From the NCBI RefSeq assembly GCF_013085465.1, contig NZ_CP049838.1, forward strand, positions 7,006,001 through 7,070,000: a DNA stretch of 64,000 nt, given 5' to 3'. Each line of letters starts with the position of its first letter. Positions within the stretch are counted from its first letter, which is position 1. Source of the DNA: Streptomyces asoensis. GTDB lineage: Bacteria > Actinomycetota > Actinomycetes > Streptomycetales > Streptomycetaceae. The position numbers were made by a program, and so were the translations under genes. The notes under the pieces were generated by a model. That model was given only the letters and a program-made list of their open reading frames with translations, ran no database searches and had not been told where the DNA came from. This document shows positions 20,929 to 30,244 of the stretch, piece after piece.

Positions 20929-21206
20929 GGGTCACTCCAAAGACTTCAGATGCACTTACGGATGATCCCGGCATGCCGGGATCAGGATCTAGGATCTGAG
21001 TGGCGCTGCCAGGGGGATGGCCCGATGCGGATCGGGCAACCGGAGCAGCATACAACGACTGCGCCAGTGCAACGAAACTACCATGGCTGCTCAGGGCCCT
21101 GCCCCCCGCCCTGGTCGGCCTCCGCCCGCTCTGTCCGGCCCGCTTTCCGGCGGACACCGGCCCGGGGTCTACGCTGCGTCCAGTCCAGCAGCCCGAGGAG
21201 GCGCAG

Positions 21207-22934
21207 GTGGCGCAGGTGCCGCAGACATTCTTCGATGCTCTCGCGGTGCGCACCTGGTGCGGCCTGGCGCTCACGGCGCTGGGCCGGGCGCGCGAGGAGA
21301 TCGACGCGATCAACGTCTATCCCGTCGCGGACGGGGACACCGGCACCAACCTGTATCTGACCGTCGAGTCCGCGACGACCGCCGTCGAGGCGGTGTTCGC
21401 CGGGTACGCGGCCGGTTCCGGTGCCGGCTCCGCGCCCGCCGGGAAGCCCTCTCTCGCCGACGCCGCGCGCGCGATGGCGCACGGCGCGCTCATCGGGGCG
21501 CGCGGGAACTCGGGGACGATCCTCGCGCAGCTGCTGCGCGGCATGGCCCAGGTGCTCACCGCCGAGGGTGAGACCCCTCACACCGACGGGGACGGGCTGC
21601 GCCTGGCCCTCCGGCACGCGGCCGACTCCGCCCGCCAGGCCGTCGCCCACCCCGTCGAGGGCACCGTGCTGTCGGTCGCCTCGGCCGCCGCCGAAGCGGC
21701 GGAGGGAGCCGAGGGGGACTGCGGGACGGTCGCCCGGGCGGCCTACCGGGGGGCGTGCGCGGCGCTCGCCGCGACCCCGGGCCAGCTGGCCGTCCTGGAG
21801 CACGCCGGAGTGGTGGACGCGGGCGGCAGGGGGCTGGTCGCGGTCCTCGCGGCGCTGGTGGAGACGTTCACGGGGGAGGTGCCGGAGCTCTCCGGCGCCG
21901 TGTCGGCAGCCGCTGCCGCTGCCGCAGCCCACGGGCGCGTGGAAGCCGTGCACATGGCGGACTGCGCCGACGACGGGCCGGACGGTGCGGGCGGCGAGGA
22001 CGGCGAAGGCGGTCCCGCGTTCGAGGTGATCTATCTGCTGGAGGCCGAGGACACGGCCGTGGCGCGGCTGCGGCAGCGGCTGGACGCCCTGGGCGACTCG
22101 CTGGTCGTGGTCGGCGGCGACGGCCTGTGGAACGTGCACGTGCACGTGGACGACGCGGGCGCCGCCGTGGAGGCGGGCGTCGAGGCGGGCCGGCCGTACC
22201 GGATCCGCATCACCCACTTCGGCGCCGACGACGCGCACACGCGCGGTGGTGAGCGTCCGCCGCGCGAGCGCGTCCAGCGGGCGGTCGTCGCCGTCGTGCC
22301 CGGCGAGGGCCTGGCCGGGCTGTACACCGAGGCGGGCGCGACCACCGTGCTCGCGCGCCCCGGGGAGCCGCCCGCCAGTGGAGAGCTCGTCGAGGCCGTA
22401 CGACGGGCACACGCGCGTGAGGTCGTGCTGCTGCCCAACGACGCCGATCTGCGGCACACCGCCGCCGCGGCCGCCGAGCAGGCCCGCACGGAGGGCATCC
22501 GGGTGGCGCTGATCCCCACCCGGTCCGCGGTCCAGGGGATCGCGGCGCTGGCCGTGCACGAGCCGGACCGCCGCTTCGACGAGGACGTCGTCTCCATGAC
22601 CTCGGCGGCGGGCGCCACGCGTTACGCCGAGGTCACCGTCGCCGAGCGCCAGTCGTGGACCATGGCCGGCATCTGCCAGGCCGGTGACGTCCTCGGGCTG
22701 ATCGACGGCGACGTGGCCGTCATCGGCTCCGATGTCACCGCCGCCGCCGAGACCGTCCTGAACCGCATGCTGGCGGCGGGCGGCGAACTCGTCACCCTCG
22801 TGCTCGGTGACGAGGCGCCCGAAGGTGTCGCCGAGCACCTGGAGGCACGGGTGCGGGAGGCCTACCTCGCCGTGGACACGGTGGTGTACCGGGGAGGACG
22901 GCAGGGTGCGCTGGTGTTGATCGGGGTGGAGTAG
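21207..22934 (+). CDS. DAK2 domain protein (FakA/YloV-like)
   Basis: A 575-aa protein. The N-terminal DAK2 kinase domain covers about residues 10-210: NVYPVADGDTGTNLYLT carries the metal-binding Asp cluster and GARGNSGTILAQLLRG the nucleotide loop. A DegV/FakB-interacting type C-terminal region follows. FakA homologues phosphorylate fatty acids bound to FakB, but no FakB is in the window and FakA function is not established in Streptomyces. The GTG at 21207 has GAGGAG six bases upstream. The order rpmB - yloV-like - recG is also seen in Firmicutes, so this is old conserved context. Confidence 0.85.
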   Translation: MAQVPQTFFDALAVRTWCGLALTALGRAREEIDAINVYPVADGDTGTNLYLTVESATTAVEAVFAGYAAGSGAGSAPAGKPSLADAARAMAHGALIGARGNSGTILAQLLRGMAQVLTAEGETPHTDGDGLRLALRHAADSARQAVAHPVEGTVLSVASAAAEAAEGAEGDCGTVARAAYRGACAALAATPGQLAVLEHAGVVDAGGRGLVAVLAALVETFTGEVPELSGAVSAAAAAAAAHGRVEAVHMADCADDGPDGAGGEDGEGGPAFEVIYLLEAEDTAVARLRQRLDALGDSLVVVGGDGLWNVHVHVDDAGAAVEAGVEAGRPYRIRITHFGADDAHTRGGERPPRERVQRAVVAVVPGEGLAGLYTEAGATTVLARPGEPPASGELVEAVRRAHAREVVLLPNDADLRHTAAAAAEQARTEGIRVALIPTRSAVQGIAALAVHEPDRRFDEDVVSMTSAAGATRYAEVTVAERQSWTMAGICQAGDVLGLIDGDVAVIGSDVTAAAETVLNRMLAAGGELVTLVLGDEAPEGVAEHLEARVREAYLAVDTVVYRGGRQGALVLIGVE

Positions 22935-22992
22935 TCGGGGTGGAGTCAGGGGGTGAAGGGGGCGATGGGAGTGAAGGGGGCGTTGGGATCGT

Positions 22993-25986
22993 TCAACGAT
23001 CCTTCTGTTCCTCCGTCGCGTGCAGCAACTGCTCCGCCTCGGCCCGCCGCGCCCGCGCCGTCTCGTCCTCCGCCTCCTCGCCGCCGAGATCGGCAGCGGT
23101 GTCGGCATCGTCCTCGGCGTCGGCGTAAGCCCGCAGCACCGCACGCGCGCGTGCCGCCGCCGCCACGGGGCGTCCCAGGTCGGTCTCCAGCCAGCCCGCG
23201 GCCAGCTCCGCGCCGGTCCGGGCGTGCACGGCGTCCTCGCCCAGGGCGACGAACACCGCGACGGCCTCGGACATCTGGGAGAGCGCCTCGTCCAGGGTGG
23301 CCCGGATCGAGTCGTCGTCGGCGTCCTCGGCGGCGGAACGGGCGAGCAGGTCCCCGAACTGACGGTGGGTGTGGCCGAGTTCGGCAACGAGCCGCAGGCG
23401 CGCCTCGTCGTCGTCCGCCGCGTCGAACGCGTCCGCGCACTCCTCCACGGCACTCGTCATCAGGTCGCGTGCCGCGTCCGTCCCGTCCTCGGTGCGCAGG
23501 GCAAGCCACGCGCGGGCGCGCAGCGAGCGGACGAGCCCGTGGACGTTGCCGAGGCCGCGCCACAGCTCGCCCGCGCGCGCGTAGGCCTGGTCCGCCTCGG
23601 TGCGCAGACCGGCCTGGCCGAGCGACTCGGCGGCCAGGTGGGCGAGGGTCGCGTGGTCGTGCTGCTCGGGCCAGTGCCGGGCGATCTCGGCGGCCTGGAG
23701 CCTGCGTTCGGCGGCGTCCCGGTGTTCCCCGAGCTCGCTCAGACAGTCACCCAGCCACCACTGCGTCTGGACGACCGCGCCGTCGCCGTGCGTCTCGGCG
23801 GTCAGCTCCGCCAGCGCGGACTCCAGCACCTCCGCGGCCTCGGCCCAGCGGCCCTGCCGCACCAGGAACCCGCCGAGCTGGTGCCGCGCCCACGCGCCGA
23901 GCGTGGGGCCCGCACCCGCCTCGTCCGCCCAGTGCGCCGCCTCCAGGGCGTGCTCCGCGGCCTCTTCGGCCTCTCCCCGGCCTCCGACGACCTCGGCGAG
24001 CTGGAGGTGCAGCTGGGCCCGCCCGACCGCCTCCAGATACGGTCCGCCGTGCTCCAGGGCCGCTCGCAGGGCCCGCTCCGCCTCCCTCATGTCGCCCAGC
24101 TGATGGGCGAGACCGGCCAGCCGGGCCTCGTACTCCACGGCGAACCACGGCAGGCCCGTCTCGATGAACTCCGCCGCGGCCCGCGCGAACAGCTCCGCGC
24201 CCGCCTCCGGGTTCCCGGAGTGCGTCGCCAGCTCCGCGAGCATCGCGTGCCCCTCGGCGACCCGGGCGGCGAGCCGTACGTCGTTCCCCGCGCGCCCGTC
24301 GACGAGCGCCAGAAGCTCCCGTACCGCCGCCTCCGCCTCCGCCAGAACCGCCTCGTCGACCACCTCCCCCTCGGCCTCGTGGACGCGCCGCATCAGGATC
24401 CGCGCCCGGCCCATCAGCACACCCGCCGCCTGCGGCACCTCCGTGTCGCCCTCGGCGTACAGCGCGAGCACCCGGTCGTACGGCTCGGCGACCGCCGCGA
24501 GCGCCTCGTCGATCTCGCCGGCCAGCGCACGGACGTACGCCGCACGTGCGCGTGCCGCCAGGGCCTCGCCGGGGTCGCCCGCCTGCGCGTACAGCTCGGC
24601 GGCGTGCTCGAACGCTTCGGCGCCCTCCGGGCCGAGACCTATCGCCTCGTGGTCGGCGATCTCCGCGCGGTCACGCGCCTCCAGCTCGACGCCCTCCACC
24701 TCCTCGGCCAGCCGCGCCACCCGCGCCCACGCCTCGACGGCATGCGGCTGGAGCGTGTCGGACAGCCGCTGGGCCTCGGCGAGCAGGACCGCCAGGTCCG
24801 GTTCGACGGCCTCCTGGACCGCGGCCGGAGCCGGAGCTGTGGCCCCGGGCGCCGCCGCCGCGGCGGCGGGGCGAGCCGCCCGTACCCCCAGCGGCAGCCG
24901 CTCCACCAGGGGCCGCTGTGCCATACGCGCGCGTGCCCGCCCGCTGACGTACGACGTGCCGTTGCGCTCGTCGAAGCGCGCGGCCAGCGCGAGGGCCTCC
25001 GCGCGCGCGTGCCCCGCGAGTTCCACCGCCGTCCACTCCCGCCCGGCCGGCCCCGGCACCCGCTGACCGGCGAGACCCAGCTCGGACAGACGCTCCATGA
25101 GCAACACCACCACGCTCAGGAACTCCAGCTTGCTGTGCGGATGCCCCTCGTCCGTGAAGTACGCCGGCCGCTCCGCGAGCAGCTCCAGGCCCCGCGCCTC
25201 GTTGCCGGTCAGTGCGCAGAACTCGACGTGGTCGGCGTAGGCGCCCCGCATGCTCTCCATGGACCGCACCAGCCGGAAGCCCCGCAGATGGTGGGCGCGG
25301 GCCTCCTCCACGCGGCTCAGCCGCAGCAACGGAAGCAGGGACGACGCGAGCACCGTGTGCGGCTCGTGCGCGCACGTGTACTCGCCCTCCAGGACCGGCG
25401 CCCACACCGCGAGCGCCTCCGCGTCCCGGCCCCGCTCCGCCTGCCACCAGCCCTGCCCGTGCAGCTCGCACGCGTGACAGTCGGCCATGGTGTCCCGGTC
25501 CGCGGCCAGCCACGCGGTGAACGCCCGCTCCGCCCGCTCCACGTCGCCCACGTGCGCGGCCACGCTGAACTCGGCGCTGCGCACCGCCCGCGCGGAGTGC
25601 CCGGCGAGCCGGTAGCGGTGCTCCATCTCGCCGAGCCACTTCTCCACCGACGCCAGCGGCACGTGCGGCTGGTCGAGCATGCCGGCCGACATCCACTTGA
25701 AGACCCAGTGCAGCGAGTGCGTCTCGTACTCGTCGAAGTCCTCGGGCCGCTCGTCCCACATGCGCAGCAGCCGCGCGAACGGGACGAACATCTTCGCCTT
25801 CTCGGAGCTGTAGTTGTAGACCTTCAGCTGGTGCCCGAGCGCCTCGATCACGGCGAGCGGGATGTCGAGCCTCTCGGCCTCCAGCAGCAGCTGTTCCGCG
25901 CGCGCGTTGCGGGCCGGGCCCTCCGGCTGCTCGCCGTTCTCCGCCATCGCCCGGCGAAGGGAGTCGAAGTCCGTGATCTCGCTCAT
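22993..25986 (-). CDS. Large tetratricopeptide-repeat protein
   Basis: A 997-aa, acidic, almost wholly alpha-helical soluble protein with no signal peptide or membrane segment. Repeated A/L-rich helix pairs (for example HALEAAHWADEAGAG and AEQARAEAL-type stretches) run from about residue 80 to 960 and look like degenerate TPRs, broken by an Ala/Pro-rich linker near residues 365-400. No catalytic domain is recognised. Its ATG overlaps the stop of the HSP90-like gene (TGATG), so the two proteins are made together. That suggests a partner or co-chaperone role for the HSP90-like ATPase. Confidence 0.85.
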   Translation of the reverse strand: MSEITDFDSLRRAMAENGEQPEGPARNARAEQLLLEAERLDIPLAVIEALGHQLKVYNYSSEKAKMFVPFARLLRMWDERPEDFDEYETHSLHWVFKWMSAGMLDQPHVPLASVEKWLGEMEHRYRLAGHSARAVRSAEFSVAAHVGDVERAERAFTAWLAADRDTMADCHACELHGQGWWQAERGRDAEALAVWAPVLEGEYTCAHEPHTVLASSLLPLLRLSRVEEARAHHLRGFRLVRSMESMRGAYADHVEFCALTGNEARGLELLAERPAYFTDEGHPHSKLEFLSVVVLLMERLSELGLAGQRVPGPAGREWTAVELAGHARAEALALAARFDERNGTSYVSGRARARMAQRPLVERLPLGVRAARPAAAAAAPGATAPAPAAVQEAVEPDLAVLLAEAQRLSDTLQPHAVEAWARVARLAEEVEGVELEARDRAEIADHEAIGLGPEGAEAFEHAAELYAQAGDPGEALAARARAAYVRALAGEIDEALAAVAEPYDRVLALYAEGDTEVPQAAGVLMGRARILMRRVHEAEGEVVDEAVLAEAEAAVRELLALVDGRAGNDVRLAARVAEGHAMLAELATHSGNPEAGAELFARAAAEFIETGLPWFAVEYEARLAGLAHQLGDMREAERALRAALEHGGPYLEAVGRAQLHLQLAEVVGGRGEAEEAAEHALEAAHWADEAGAGPTLGAWARHQLGGFLVRQGRWAEAAEVLESALAELTAETHGDGAVVQTQWWLGDCLSELGEHRDAAERRLQAAEIARHWPEQHDHATLAHLAAESLGQAGLRTEADQAYARAGELWRGLGNVHGLVRSLRARAWLALRTEDGTDAARDLMTSAVEECADAFDAADDDEARLRLVAELGHTHRQFGDLLARSAAEDADDDSIRATLDEALSQMSEAVAVFVALGEDAVHARTGAELAAGWLETDLGRPVAAAARARAVLRAYADAEDDADTAADLGGEEAEDETARARRAEAEQLLHATEEQKDR

Positions 25987-27842
25987 CAGTGACCGCCCTG
26001 TTCCTCTGTCGGCTCCCCGTGTGCCGACTCCCCGTGCGTGGCCCATTCCAGGAGGCCTATGAACGCCCGGTTCAGCAGCGCCGAGTCCGCGGGCCGCAGC
26101 GGGCGCTGCGCCATCAGCAGCGCCTGCCCGTACAGCGACTCCGTGGCGGTGCCGATCAGCTCGGGATCGTTCAACGAACTGATCCGCCGTATCAGCGGGT
26201 TGAGATGGTTGAGCACCAGACGCGCGCGCGGCGCGCTCCCGCGCAGCGAGCCCAGAATGCCCGCCCACAGGTCGTCGGCCTGCGCCTCGGCCTGCGCGCG
26301 TGCCTGCTCGTGCCGGGCCCCCCGGTCGTCGAGATGCAGCGCGGGCACCGACAACGGGAGAAAGGCCCGCAGGACGACATCGCAGCCCAGCGGGTCGAGC
26401 TTCGCCCGCGCGGCCGCCAGGAAGCCCGCCAGCGCCAGCTCGTCGGCCGCGGCGACGGTGTCCAGGTGGGCGGTCACGGTGTCCGCGTCCAGCTCGGCGA
26501 CCACCGTCCCCGGCCGCACCGACGGCAGCGCCTCGACCAGCTCGCTGTCGTACGTGTAACCGCCGTTGACCACCCCGATGCCCTGCGCGGACGCGATGGG
26601 CGCGACCTGCCGGTACTCCTCCACGGTCCGCGTGAAGTGCACCACCGGGTGCCGCTGCGCGAACTCCTCCAGCGACAGCCGGCCGTCGGTCGTCTCGAAG
26701 GGCAGCCACGGCAGCATCGTGCGCAGCATCTCCTCGTCGTGCCGCGCCAGGGACTTCACGCCCAGGTGGTGCACCTCCAGGAAGGCCGCCAGCCGTTGCG
26801 GATCACCGGCGGCCAGGCCCGTCAGCCACGACCGGATCCTTTCGCCCAGCGCCTCCCGTACCGCCGCCAGCGTCTCGTCCTCGTACAGCGACTCCCGTGA
26901 GGCCGTCGGCCGCAGACTGTCGGTGTCCAGGACACAGCGCACGAAGAACGCCCAGTCGGGCAGCAGCTGTTCGCCCCGCTCGGTCAGCAGCATCCCCTTG
27001 AGGTGCACCCGGTGACCGGCACGCTGCGCCGGGCTGACCGCCGACGGCAGCACGTACGCCACCCCGCGGACCCCCGCCACCGGCAGGTCCAGCTCGACCG
27101 AGTCCAACGGCGTGAACCCGAACAGCTCGTGACAGTGCCGGGCCAGCGCCACCCGCCGGTTGGCGGGGGAGGCGTAGGACCGGTTCCAGGGCGCCGGCAG
27201 ATCGGTGACCGCCTCGTCGCCGACCCGGACGTCGTACGGCAGCAGCGACCCGAAGTCCCGGGCCAGCGCCAGCACCCGCGGCTCCGTGAGCCACTCGCCG
27301 GCACCGGCCCGCGCCACCAGATGCACGGTGGTGCCCGGCTCGGGGCGCTCCTCGTGGGGCAGCGTCCGCACCGTGTAGGAGCCGTCGTCGCGCGCCGTCC
27401 ACTCCACGGGCGGCGCGTCCGGCGTGCGGGCGCTGCGGCTGACCACGCGGATCCGTTCGGCCACCACGAAACAGGCCAGCAGCCCGATGCCGAACTGCCC
27501 GAGGAAGTCCGAACGGACCTCCTGGAGCCCCTCGGCGCGCTTGGAGCTGCGCCCGATCGTCGCCAGCAGGTCGTGCACGTCGGCCTCGGTGAGCCCGACG
27601 CCGGAGTCCTCCACCCGCAGGCCGCCGTCCGCCGCGAACAGCCGCACGCGCGCCGGGGCGTCGGGCTCCTCGGCCCGCCGGGCGGTGATCGCGTCCACGG
27701 CGTTCTGAAGCAGTTCGCGCAGGTAGACCTTGGGACTGGAATAGAGGTGATGGGACAGCAGGTCCACCAGACCACGCAGGTCGACCTGGAACGTGTGAGG
27801 CTGCTGGGATGCCTGGGATGACTGTGAGGTCTGGGAGTCCAT
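25986..27842 (-). CDS. HSP90-family (HtpG-like) ATPase
   Basis: A 618-aa protein with the N-terminal GHKL/Bergerat ATP site intact: LRELLQNAVDAI near residues 41-52 (catalytic Glu43, Mg-binding Asn47), VEDSGVGLTEADV near 77-89, and FLGQFGIGLLACF near 113-125. The middle domain is recognisable; the C-terminal third is divergent from HtpG, so dimerisation is uncertain. The ATG at 27842 gives a Gln/Ser-rich lead of about 15 residues before the conserved domain. It is the first gene of a two-gene unit with a large TPR protein, an unusual bacterial pairing that recalls eukaryotic Hsp90-TPR co-chaperones. It is divergent from recG. Confidence 0.9.
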   Translation of the reverse strand: MDSQTSQSSQASQQPHTFQVDLRGLVDLLSHHLYSSPKVYLRELLQNAVDAITARRAEEPDAPARVRLFAADGGLRVEDSGVGLTEADVHDLLATIGRSSKRAEGLQEVRSDFLGQFGIGLLACFVVAERIRVVSRSARTPDAPPVEWTARDDGSYTVRTLPHEERPEPGTTVHLVARAGAGEWLTEPRVLALARDFGSLLPYDVRVGDEAVTDLPAPWNRSYASPANRRVALARHCHELFGFTPLDSVELDLPVAGVRGVAYVLPSAVSPAQRAGHRVHLKGMLLTERGEQLLPDWAFFVRCVLDTDSLRPTASRESLYEDETLAAVREALGERIRSWLTGLAAGDPQRLAAFLEVHHLGVKSLARHDEEMLRTMLPWLPFETTDGRLSLEEFAQRHPVVHFTRTVEEYRQVAPIASAQGIGVVNGGYTYDSELVEALPSVRPGTVVAELDADTVTAHLDTVAAADELALAGFLAAARAKLDPLGCDVVLRAFLPLSVPALHLDDRGARHEQARAQAEAQADDLWAGILGSLRGSAPRARLVLNHLNPLIRRISSLNDPELIGTATESLYGQALLMAQRPLRPADSALLNRAFIGLLEWATHGESAHGEPTEEQGGH

Positions 27843-28009
27843 CGCTGCTGCGCCGCGGGCTGGGGGAGGAGCACGGCGCGGGGTCGGGCGGTCCCGGTGG
27901 GGCGGTGACCGCGGATGATGGCCGGAGCGCGTCATCCTAGAGCCCGAACGAGCCGCCTGACCAGGGGTTTCGGGACACATATACGGCAATGTCAGTGGTG
28001 TGGTGTGCA

Positions 28010-30244
28010 ATGGATCTCGTGCCCGCACTGAAAGAACCACTGGAACAGCCACTGAAGTCAGTGCTCGGCCCCGCCACCGCGAAGGTGATGGCCGAGCACC
28101 TCGGCCTGCACACCGTCGGCGACCTCCTGCACCACTACCCCCGCAGATACGAGGAGCGCGGCCAGCTCACCCACCTCGCCGACCTCCCCATGGACGAGCA
28201 CGTCACCGTGGTCGCCCAGGTCGCCGACGCCCGTCTGCACAGCTTCGCCTCGGCCAAGGCCCCCCGGGGCAAGGGGCAGCGCCTGGAGGTGACCATCACC
28301 GACGGCAGCGGCCGGCTCCAGCTGGTCTTCTTCGGCAGCGGCGTCCACAAACCCCACAAGGAGCTCCTGCCGGGCACGCGCGCGATGTTCTCGGGCAAGG
28401 TCTCGGTCTTCAACCGCCGCCTCCAGCTGGCCCATCCGGCCTACGAACTGCTGCGGGCCGACACCGACGAGTCGGTGGAGACCTGGGCCGGCGCCCTCAT
28501 CCCGCTCTACCCCGCCACCGCGAAACTGGAGTCCTGGAAGATCGGCAAGGCGATCCAGACCGTCCTGCCCACCGCGCAGGAGGCACTCGACCCCCTCCCG
28601 GACTCGCTGCGTGACGGCCGCGGCCTGGTCTCCCTCCCCGAGGCCCTCCTGAAGATCCACCGCCCCCACACCAAGGCGGACATCGCCGACGCCCGCGCCC
28701 GGCTGAAGTGGGACGAGGCGTTCGTCCTCCAGGTCGCCCTCGCCCGCCGCCGCCACGCCGACGCCCAACTCCCGGCCGTCCCCCGCGTACCGGCCGCCGA
28801 CGGCCTGCTGACCTCCTTCGACGCCCGTCTCCCCTTCACCCTCACCGAAGGCCAGCAGAAGGTCTCGAAGGAGATCTTCGACGACCTGGCGACGGACCAT
28901 CCGATGCACCGGCTGCTCCAGGGAGAGGTGGGTTCGGGCAAGACCTTGGTCGCCCTCCGCGCCATGCTCGCCGTGGTCGACGCCGGCGGGCAGGCCGCCA
29001 TGCTCGCCCCCACCGAGGTCCTCGCCCAGCAGCACCACCGCTCCGTCGTCGAGATGATGGGCGAGCTGGCCGAGGGCGGGATGCTGGGCGGGTCCGAGCG
29101 GGCCACCAAGGTCGTGGTGCTGACCGGGTCCATGGGCACGGCCGCCCGCAGGCAGGCACTGCTCGACCTCGTCACCGGAGAGGCCGGCATCGTGATCGGC
29201 ACGCACGCGCTGATCGAGGACAAGGTCCGCTTCCACGACCTCGGGCTGGTAGTCGTCGACGAACAGCACCGCTTCGGAGTCGAACAACGCGACGCTCTGC
29301 GCAGCAAGGGCAAGCAGCCCCCGCACCTGCTCGTCATGACGGCCACGCCGATCCCGCGCACCGTCGCCATGACCGTCTTCGGCGATCTGGAGACGTCCGT
29401 CCTCGACCAGCTCCCGGCCGGCCGCTCGCCCATCGCCAGCCATGTCGTCCCGGCCGCCGACAAGCCGCACTTCCTGGCCCGCGCCTGGGAACGGGTCCGC
29501 GAGGAGGTCGGCAACGGCCATCAGGCGTACGTCGTCTGCCCGCGCATCGGCGACGACGCCGACGAGGCGGCCGACGCGAAGAAGGCCGGCAGGACCAAGA
29601 AGAAGTCCCCCGAGGACGAGGCGGAGAAGCGGCCGCCGCTCGCCGTCCTGGACATCGCAGAGCAGCTCGCCAAGGGCCCCCTGCACGGCCTCGGGGTCGA
29701 GGTCCTGCACGGCCGCATGCCCCCCGACGACAAGGACGCGGTCATGCGCCGCTTCGCCGCGGGCGACACCGACGTCCTGGTCGCCACGACCGTCATCGAG
29801 GTCGGCGTCAACGTCCCGAACGCCACCGCGATGGTGATCATGGACGCCGATCGCTTCGGCGTCTCCCAGCTGCACCAGCTGCGCGGTCGCGTCGGCCGGG
29901 GCTCGGCGCCCGGTCTGTGCCTCCTGGTCTCCGAGATGCCGGAGGCGAGCGCGGCCCGCCGGCGCCTCGACGCCGTCGCCGCCACCCTCGACGGCTTCGA
30001 ACTCTCCCGGATCGACCTCGAACAGCGCCGCGAGGGCGACGTCCTGGGCCAGGCCCAGTCCGGCGCCCGCTCCAGCCTGCGCGTACTCGCGGTCATCGAG
30101 GACGAGGAGGTCATCGCGGAGGCGCGCGAGGAGGCGGCCCGGCTGGTCGCCGCCGACCCCGAGCTGGAGACCCTGCCCGGCCTGCGCACGGCCCTGGACG
30201 CCCTCCTCGACGAAGAGCGGGAGCAGTACCTGGACAAGGGCTGA
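28010..30244 (+). CDS. recG: ATP-dependent DNA helicase RecG
   Basis: A 744-aa helicase that reverses stalled forks and processes Holliday junctions. The N-terminal wedge/OB domain covers about residues 10-250. Helicase domain 1 has Walker A GEVGSGKT and the DExH-type box VVDEQH, and domain 2 has the QLRGRVGRG motif. The ATG at 28010 (MDLVPALKEP) is preferred over a start 21 bp upstream. An insertion of lysine-rich sequence near residues 515-545 (DAKKAGRTKKKSPED) looks like a flexible loop. A terminator-like hairpin follows. Confidence 0.96.
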   Translation: MDLVPALKEPLEQPLKSVLGPATAKVMAEHLGLHTVGDLLHHYPRRYEERGQLTHLADLPMDEHVTVVAQVADARLHSFASAKAPRGKGQRLEVTITDGSGRLQLVFFGSGVHKPHKELLPGTRAMFSGKVSVFNRRLQLAHPAYELLRADTDESVETWAGALIPLYPATAKLESWKIGKAIQTVLPTAQEALDPLPDSLRDGRGLVSLPEALLKIHRPHTKADIADARARLKWDEAFVLQVALARRRHADAQLPAVPRVPAADGLLTSFDARLPFTLTEGQQKVSKEIFDDLATDHPMHRLLQGEVGSGKTLVALRAMLAVVDAGGQAAMLAPTEVLAQQHHRSVVEMMGELAEGGMLGGSERATKVVVLTGSMGTAARRQALLDLVTGEAGIVIGTHALIEDKVRFHDLGLVVVDEQHRFGVEQRDALRSKGKQPPHLLVMTATPIPRTVAMTVFGDLETSVLDQLPAGRSPIASHVVPAADKPHFLARAWERVREEVGNGHQAYVVCPRIGDDADEAADAKKAGRTKKKSPEDEAEKRPPLAVLDIAEQLAKGPLHGLGVEVLHGRMPPDDKDAVMRRFAAGDTDVLVATTVIEVGVNVPNATAMVIMDADRFGVSQLHQLRGRVGRGSAPGLCLLVSEMPEASAARRRLDAVAATLDGFELSRIDLEQRREGDVLGQAQSGARSSLRVLAVIEDEEVIAEAREEAARLVAADPELETLPGLRTALDALLDEEREQYLDKG

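Follow-up and report, generated by a model that had tools for sequence, protein, structure and literature searches.

A bacterial Hsp90 family protein and its conserved gene partner: a possible dedicated chaperone pair

To our knowledge, bacterial Hsp90 is usually viewed as a chaperone that is helped by DnaK and has no dedicated co-chaperones. In an HTPG tree, the two copies of S. coelicolor fall in different groups and Actinobacteria are found in groups A and C; the accessible portion of this source mentions no partner for group C, and the term TPR is absent from its main text (PMC1525184). Another source states that hsp90B and hsp90C were ignored, and its accessible portion mentions no partner for hsp90C and contains neither the word TPR nor the word operon (PMC3708813). 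Our literature search, which extended little into subscription journals and preprints, found no description of a bacterial Hsp90/HtpG co-chaperone or of a bacterial Hsp90-TPR pair. Here we analyze a gene pair in a 64,000-nucleotide stretch of Streptomyces asoensis DNA (the window) that encodes a clear member of the 'HSP90 family protein' model NF010683 (PRK14083), hereafter Hsp90C, together with a partner protein. NF010683 is probably the HTPG group C, or hsp90C, of Chen 2006 and Press 2013.

The two proteins encoded by the pair

The features of the locus are listed in Table 1. The stop codon of the Hsp90C gene and the start codon of the partner gene have one base in common (TGATG), and the positions, the shared strand and this overlap agree with what had been read from the letters of the DNA. 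The source genome is a single contig of 10.04 Mb with one Hsp90C gene. It carries a second, separate Hsp90/HtpG-type gene, the product of which is 27-33% identical to Hsp90C over parts of its length and scores below the NF010683 cut-off.

Table 1 Features of the gene pair and its flanks in the window
Feature	Position	Strand	Basis or remark
Flanking DAK2/FakA-like (YloV) gene	21000..22934	+	TIGR03599, 445 bits against a cut-off of 396
Partner protein, 997 aa: conserved core, linker and TPR superhelix	22993..25986	-	
Partner: TPR superhelix, residues 398-915	23242..24795	-	
Partner: conserved core, residues 1-365	24892..25986	-	HMM match; pLDDT
Partner: FDxRN(G) signature close to core end, residues 338-343	24958..24975	-	Residue conservation in 60 partners
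Partner: third signature cysteine, C205	25372..25374	-	54/60
Partner: core signature D165...D169-C170-x-x-C173	25468..25494	-	Residue conservation in 60 partners
Hsp90 family protein (Hsp90C; NF010683/PRK14083 type), 618 aa	25986..27842	-	NF010683 score; AlphaFold2 model; Hsp90 fold over residues 20-605
Hsp90C: C-terminal domain, residues 461-605 (approximate), and disordered, non-conserved tail 606-618	25989..26462	-	
Hsp90C: middle domain, residues 216-460 (approximate), catalytic-loop R316	26463..27197	-	R316 in 27/27; structural alignment to TRAP1
Hsp90C: N-terminal GHKL ATPase domain, residues 1-215 (boundary approximate)	27198..27842	-	E43, N47, D79, G83, G120 in 27/27
Flanking recG ORF	27989..30244	+	Start codon possibly a few codons downstream

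The Hsp90C of the window scored 858.2 bits against NF010683, above the curated cut-off of 455, and 171.2 bits against the HtpG model NF003555, below the curated cut-off of 371. All 27 Hsp90C members in our comparison set matched NF010683 at E <= 1e-20, and among 14 named control genomes the model had matches in 6, above the cut-off in 2. The sequence-only reading had labeled the protein HtpG-type with an intact ATP site. R42, E43, N47, D79, G83, G120 and R316 are identical in 27/27 Hsp90C and 13/13 actinobacterial HtpG-type proteins, which bears out the intact site; the protein is thus an Hsp90 with its ATPase residues in place, but it belongs to NF010683 rather than to HtpG.

The N-terminal domain of Hsp90C has sequence matches to HtpG and TRAP1, and among the 60 PDB sequence matches listed all end at residue 397 or earlier. 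The AlphaFold2 model has a mean pLDDT of 87.5, with values below 50 in the tail, and in a structural comparison the predicted fold aligned to full-length TRAP1/HtpG over residues 20-605. The C-terminal third had been described as divergent from HtpG; this is correct for its sequence, yet the predicted fold is that of a whole Hsp90 up to residue 605. Prediction therefore makes Hsp90C a complete Hsp90 of N-M-C architecture. When the 27 family members were compared with the 13 actinobacterial HtpG-type proteins, 57 positions were conserved in Hsp90C but different in HtpG (27 in the N, 24 in the M and 6 in the C domain).

The partner gene encodes a helical core of about 350 residues with the pattern DxxxDCxxC...C...P and DxRN. 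An HMM built from 54 non-actinobacterial partners matched residues 13-354 of the window partner with an E value of 1.6e-67, and outside actinobacteria the partner gene usually consists of the core alone. The core is modeled with pLDDT values of 90-98 in 35 of the 36 ten-residue blocks up to residue 360. Among 60 partners, D165 is present in 59, D169 in 57, and C170 and C173 each in 54; near the end of the core, D339 is found in 54, R341 in 59 and N342 in all 60. The triad C170/C173/C205 is all or none, as the same 6 of the 60 partners lack all three cysteines, so the triad is not essential everywhere. In four gut clostridial loci (L177, L190, L191 and L194), the first partner copy has no triad, and further down there is another copy (the second or third) of 756-780 aa.

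The extension that follows the core is predicted to fold as a TPR superhelix. When the full partner was compared with PDB structures, the matches were filled by this array and not by the core. The window partner scored 27.4 against Pfam TPR_12, for which the gathering score is 30.1, and the S. globosus homologue reached a Pfam TPR score of 42.1. No Pfam family was found in the window partner core, and weak TPR matches occurred in at most 6 of 21 cores. The partner had been taken for a helical-repeat or TPR protein; the part conserved across phyla is the Cys-signature core and not a canonical TPR array. For the core, we found no NCBIfam family, PDB sequence matches did not go below E 0.0015, and partner genes were annotated as hypothetical wherever labels were seen. 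The analysis thus marks out an as yet unnamed protein family.

Gene order and co-occurrence

We examined 80 Streptomyces genomes (G001-G080) out of 149 other genomes of the genus. Hsp90C was present in 50 of them, the core in the same 50 and in none of the other 30. This count leaves out G028, where a 142-aa Hsp90C fragment at a contig edge has no partner match; counted, it gives 50/51. The core lies directly downstream on the same strand in 57/57 counted Hsp90C loci, with gaps of -1 to 101 bp. Seven of the 50 pair-bearing genomes have a complete pair at two places, the split Hsp90C of G010 (two pieces) counts as one, and G080 has one extra, lone partner fragment. These counts are not independent because of shared ancestry; the objection weighs less against the recurrence of the pair at different sites and across phyla.

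For the cross-phylum set, 80 loci were found by Hsp90C alone, of which 3 end at a contig edge and 77 are readable. The core is the first downstream ORF in 70/80 loci and the second in 1/80, that is in 71/77 readable loci from eight phyla (at least eight, as read from record titles, several of which are MAGs). The gap is at most 30 bp in 67/70 loci and zero or overlapping in 55/70, although it was measured from the most upstream start, so that overlap may be overstated. In the 6 readable loci without a downstream core, the partner is elsewhere in the genome in 4, upstream in 1 and convergent nearby in 1. Whole-genome searches, which covered 35 genomes from 36 of the 80 loci, found the core in 35/35, including 5 of the 6 exceptions. 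No fusion of Hsp90C with its partner was seen among the 80 cross-phylum and 78 actinobacterial loci; the Hsp90C frames, taken from the match, span 581-625 aa in the former and at most 672 aa in the latter. Among the 78 fetched actinobacterial loci, L097-L108 were picked by partner matches and are therefore not independent.

Two further samples were searched by genome. In 199 Bacillota genomes, which include the centre genome picked for carrying the pair, Hsp90C was above the cut-off in 3; the core was found in the same 3, each time adjacent, and in 0/60 genomes with only a sub-cut-off HtpG-type match. In 246 Actinomycetota genomes, Hsp90C was above the cut-off in 8, and the core was found in those 8 and in G088 and G354; with only sub-cut-off matches, 1/21 genomes (G354) had the core. 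Two of the 10 partner-bearing genomes in this sample are therefore without Hsp90C above the cut-off. No partner was detected within about 1.5 kb of HtpG-type genes (14 stretches with 13 such genes). Hsp90C thus implies the partner very nearly always, and the partner implies Hsp90C mostly.

Partner genes without an adjoining Hsp90C are uncommon; they were observed at L256:6802-10014 (-), L257:8957-10609 (+), L109:10018-13227 (+; the lone partner gene of G157) and L118:5848-8883 (+). The Actinomyces oris gene among these is on a plasmid and is preceded by a YbjN-domain gene and by another gene with weak YbjN similarity.

Chance does not explain the pair, which turns up again at further chromosomal sites and in more than one or two phyla. 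It is improbable, in our judgment, that the two are neighbors only through linkage or shared operon regulation and that their proteins make no contact. Their overlapping or abutting ORFs make co-expression likely, and the cassette recurs at different sites, as such linkage would have it; against it, the partner is still kept in the six loci that lack it downstream, and its presence follows that of Hsp90C rather than that of sub-cut-off HtpG-type genes. A mirror-tree comparison over 83 Hsp90C-partner pairs gave an r of 0.90 (best of 500 shuffles, 0.12), an agreement expected from co-inheritance alone, since shared inheritance gives the same result.

The partner could also be a dedicated client that Hsp90C folds or keeps active; the partner itself would then carry out the cellular function, for instance that of a scaffold or a sensor. 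Gene order and co-occurrence would look the same, 2-3 partner copies follow a single Hsp90C in 6/70 loci (2 copies in Listeria), and actinobacterial partners bear a large, scaffold-like TPR superhelix. However, orphan partners persist without Hsp90C, as a strict client should not unless it is decaying, and conservation falls on the core and not on the variable extension. We regard the client reading as rather unlikely.

The suggestion that the two genes form a dedicated Hsp90/partner unit had been tied to the question of whether they occur apart in most genomes; the Streptomyces and cross-phylum loci favor pairing, and gene order and co-occurrence across phyla strongly support the unit. A partner role of the core gene is well supported by these data, which favor a dedicated helper or adaptor. 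The arrangement had also been called unfamiliar in bacteria. It is not rare, as it recurs across phyla, and it is undescribed as far as we found.

Chromosomal sites and neighboring genes

In the window, the pair lies between DAK2 and the ORF which we, like the sequence-only reading, take to be recG. The gene recG was found in all 30 Streptomyces genomes without a pair at the DAK2-recG place. In 27 of these 30 the site is readable (the stretch ends inside recG in the other 3), and DAK2 immediately precedes a co-oriented recG in 27/27, with a gap of 8-656 bp. The pair is thus an insertion, as had been supposed from an adjacency of the two flanks in other Streptomyces; it is inverted and about 5 kb long. 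DAK2/recG flanks occur at 23 of the 78 fetched actinobacterial loci, and the other 55 have no such flanks within the fetched stretch; the pair therefore occupies differing chromosomal sites.

When the neighbors of 83 loci were clustered, only the Hsp90C and partner families recurred widely, and the next clusters covered at most 11 loci. Ten proteins from seven neighbor clusters were scanned; nine belong to ordinary families (ABC transporters, histidine kinases, AraC regulators) and one was unmatched. In 31 of the 78 actinobacterial loci, none of them at recG, and also at L120, the gene immediately upstream of Hsp90C belongs to a family of about 330 aa; examples are L084:8482-9468 (-), L073:8442-9479 (-) and L120:5926-6903 (+). 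It has no Pfam match (4 members), no NCBIfam match (2 members) and no relation to the partner core (hhalign probability 0.4%), and a weak relative is found in Undibacterium (L165:61-1011, E 3.6e-10). A universal third gene was rejected: among the clusters listed only two families cross phyla, and the 330-aa family is limited to the loci just given.

Two loci come from records with unusual labels. L117 (NZ_LR134399.1) is called a Listeria plasmid; its fri-Hsp90C-partner locus has neighbors that look chromosomal and contains two partner copies followed by an SMI1/KNR4 gene. From gene order and numbering, its partner gene is presumably lmo0941. In the accessible part of one source, lmo0941 is a Listeria hypothetical gene of unknown function (PMC6901971). 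L121 (MT837560.1), an unverified 'bacteriophage' faecal scaffold, has an Hsp90C of 641 bits and an ORF grouped with the partner family by clustering; it is probably a bacterial contig.

GHKL and TPR modules are found in conflict systems, and a defence role had been listed among the possibilities for this locus. For the pair to be an anti-phage or other conflict system, with a GHKL ATPase and a TPR sensor, is highly improbable in light of the neighbors and of a PADLOC 2.0.0 search. The Hsp90C ATPase domain alone weakly matches TmtA and REase models, and a distant Hsp90-like gene sits beside a TIR gene in Pseudanabaena; yet the Hsp90C matches are short and confined to that domain, and none of 21 partner cores matched at E 0.01, nor did the full window partner. 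No third family recurs widely in the 83 loci, the scanned neighbors are mostly ordinary, and the site in the window is the DAK2-recG interval. The defence role is accordingly unsupported. The Pseudanabaena gene (L122:5932-8565), on a plasmid, encodes a different Hsp90-like protein. At 383 bits it falls short of the NF010683 cut-off, and its C-terminal part weakly matches TIR; TIR, TPR, VWA and AAA genes are nearby, and the locus is possibly another conflict system.

We found no support for a heat-shock role in the operator search of the window, where HspR/HAIR-like and CIRCE-like patterns had 0 matches with up to 3 mismatches allowed. No sigma-70-like promoter was seen in 22800-28100, which says little for Streptomyces.

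A proposed co-chaperone role and its relation to known systems

We lean modestly toward the proposal that the locus encodes a two-component chaperone machine, in which an Hsp90C clamp works with a dedicated core co-chaperone or client adaptor that docks away from the tail. Hsp90C would be a complete, ATP-driven and probably dimeric clamp, and the partner core would bind it as its dedicated co-chaperone or client adaptor. The core is probably built around a metal- or disulphide-linked Cys site, where a metal is a guess from the cysteine pattern. The TPR superhelix that is usual on the actinobacterial core may hold a further client or a scaffold. The 2-3 partner copies beside some Hsp90C genes suit exchangeable adaptors.

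The mode of docking may differ from that of eukaryotic TPR co-chaperones, on which the sequence-only reading had drawn. An EEVD ending is present in 0/158 Hsp90C tails (one is truncated where its contig ends), and the tails vary from clade to clade; docking through such a tail was therefore rejected as a candidate. With a Cys-signature helical core as the conserved part and an Hsp90 tail that is neither conserved nor EEVD-like, the eukaryotic TPR-style mechanism is unsupported, and the classical TPR-EEVD mode appears unlikely from these sequences. We propose that the core docks on the folded body of Hsp90C, and such docking would suit the 57 Hsp90C-specific conserved positions.

More tentatively, and with slightly more doubt than belief, we suggest that Hsp90C represents a second bacterial Hsp90 branch with an almost obligate dedicated Cys-site co-chaperone that arose separately from the TPR co-chaperones of eukaryotes and docks without EEVD. 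If so, the view that bacterial Hsp90 has no dedicated co-chaperone would hold only for HtpG. The company that the partner keeps with Hsp90C in many phyla suggests that there are bacterial Hsp90s to which a particular helper is dedicated. As this neglected branch of Hsp90 is almost never seen without the one partner gene, that gene offers a direct handle on the role of the branch, and Hsp90C with its partner would be a minimal two-protein system for asking how Hsp90 machines gain helpers.

Among known systems, HtpG (NF003555, hsp90A) is like Hsp90C in predicted fold and ATPase residues, but it differs at the Hsp90C-specific positions and has no adjoining partner at its 13 HtpG-type genes. LGN/Pins and other TPR superhelices share 17% identity with the partner over the common repeat fold, and we claim no relation to them. 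Eukaryotic Hsp90 with the TPR co-chaperones Hop, CHIP and FKBP51/52 likewise joins an Hsp90 to a helical-repeat partner and may be a functional analogue. Compared with that system by sequence, Hsp90C is without the EEVD tail, and the partner core, which has no family name, carries a Cys signature of its own.
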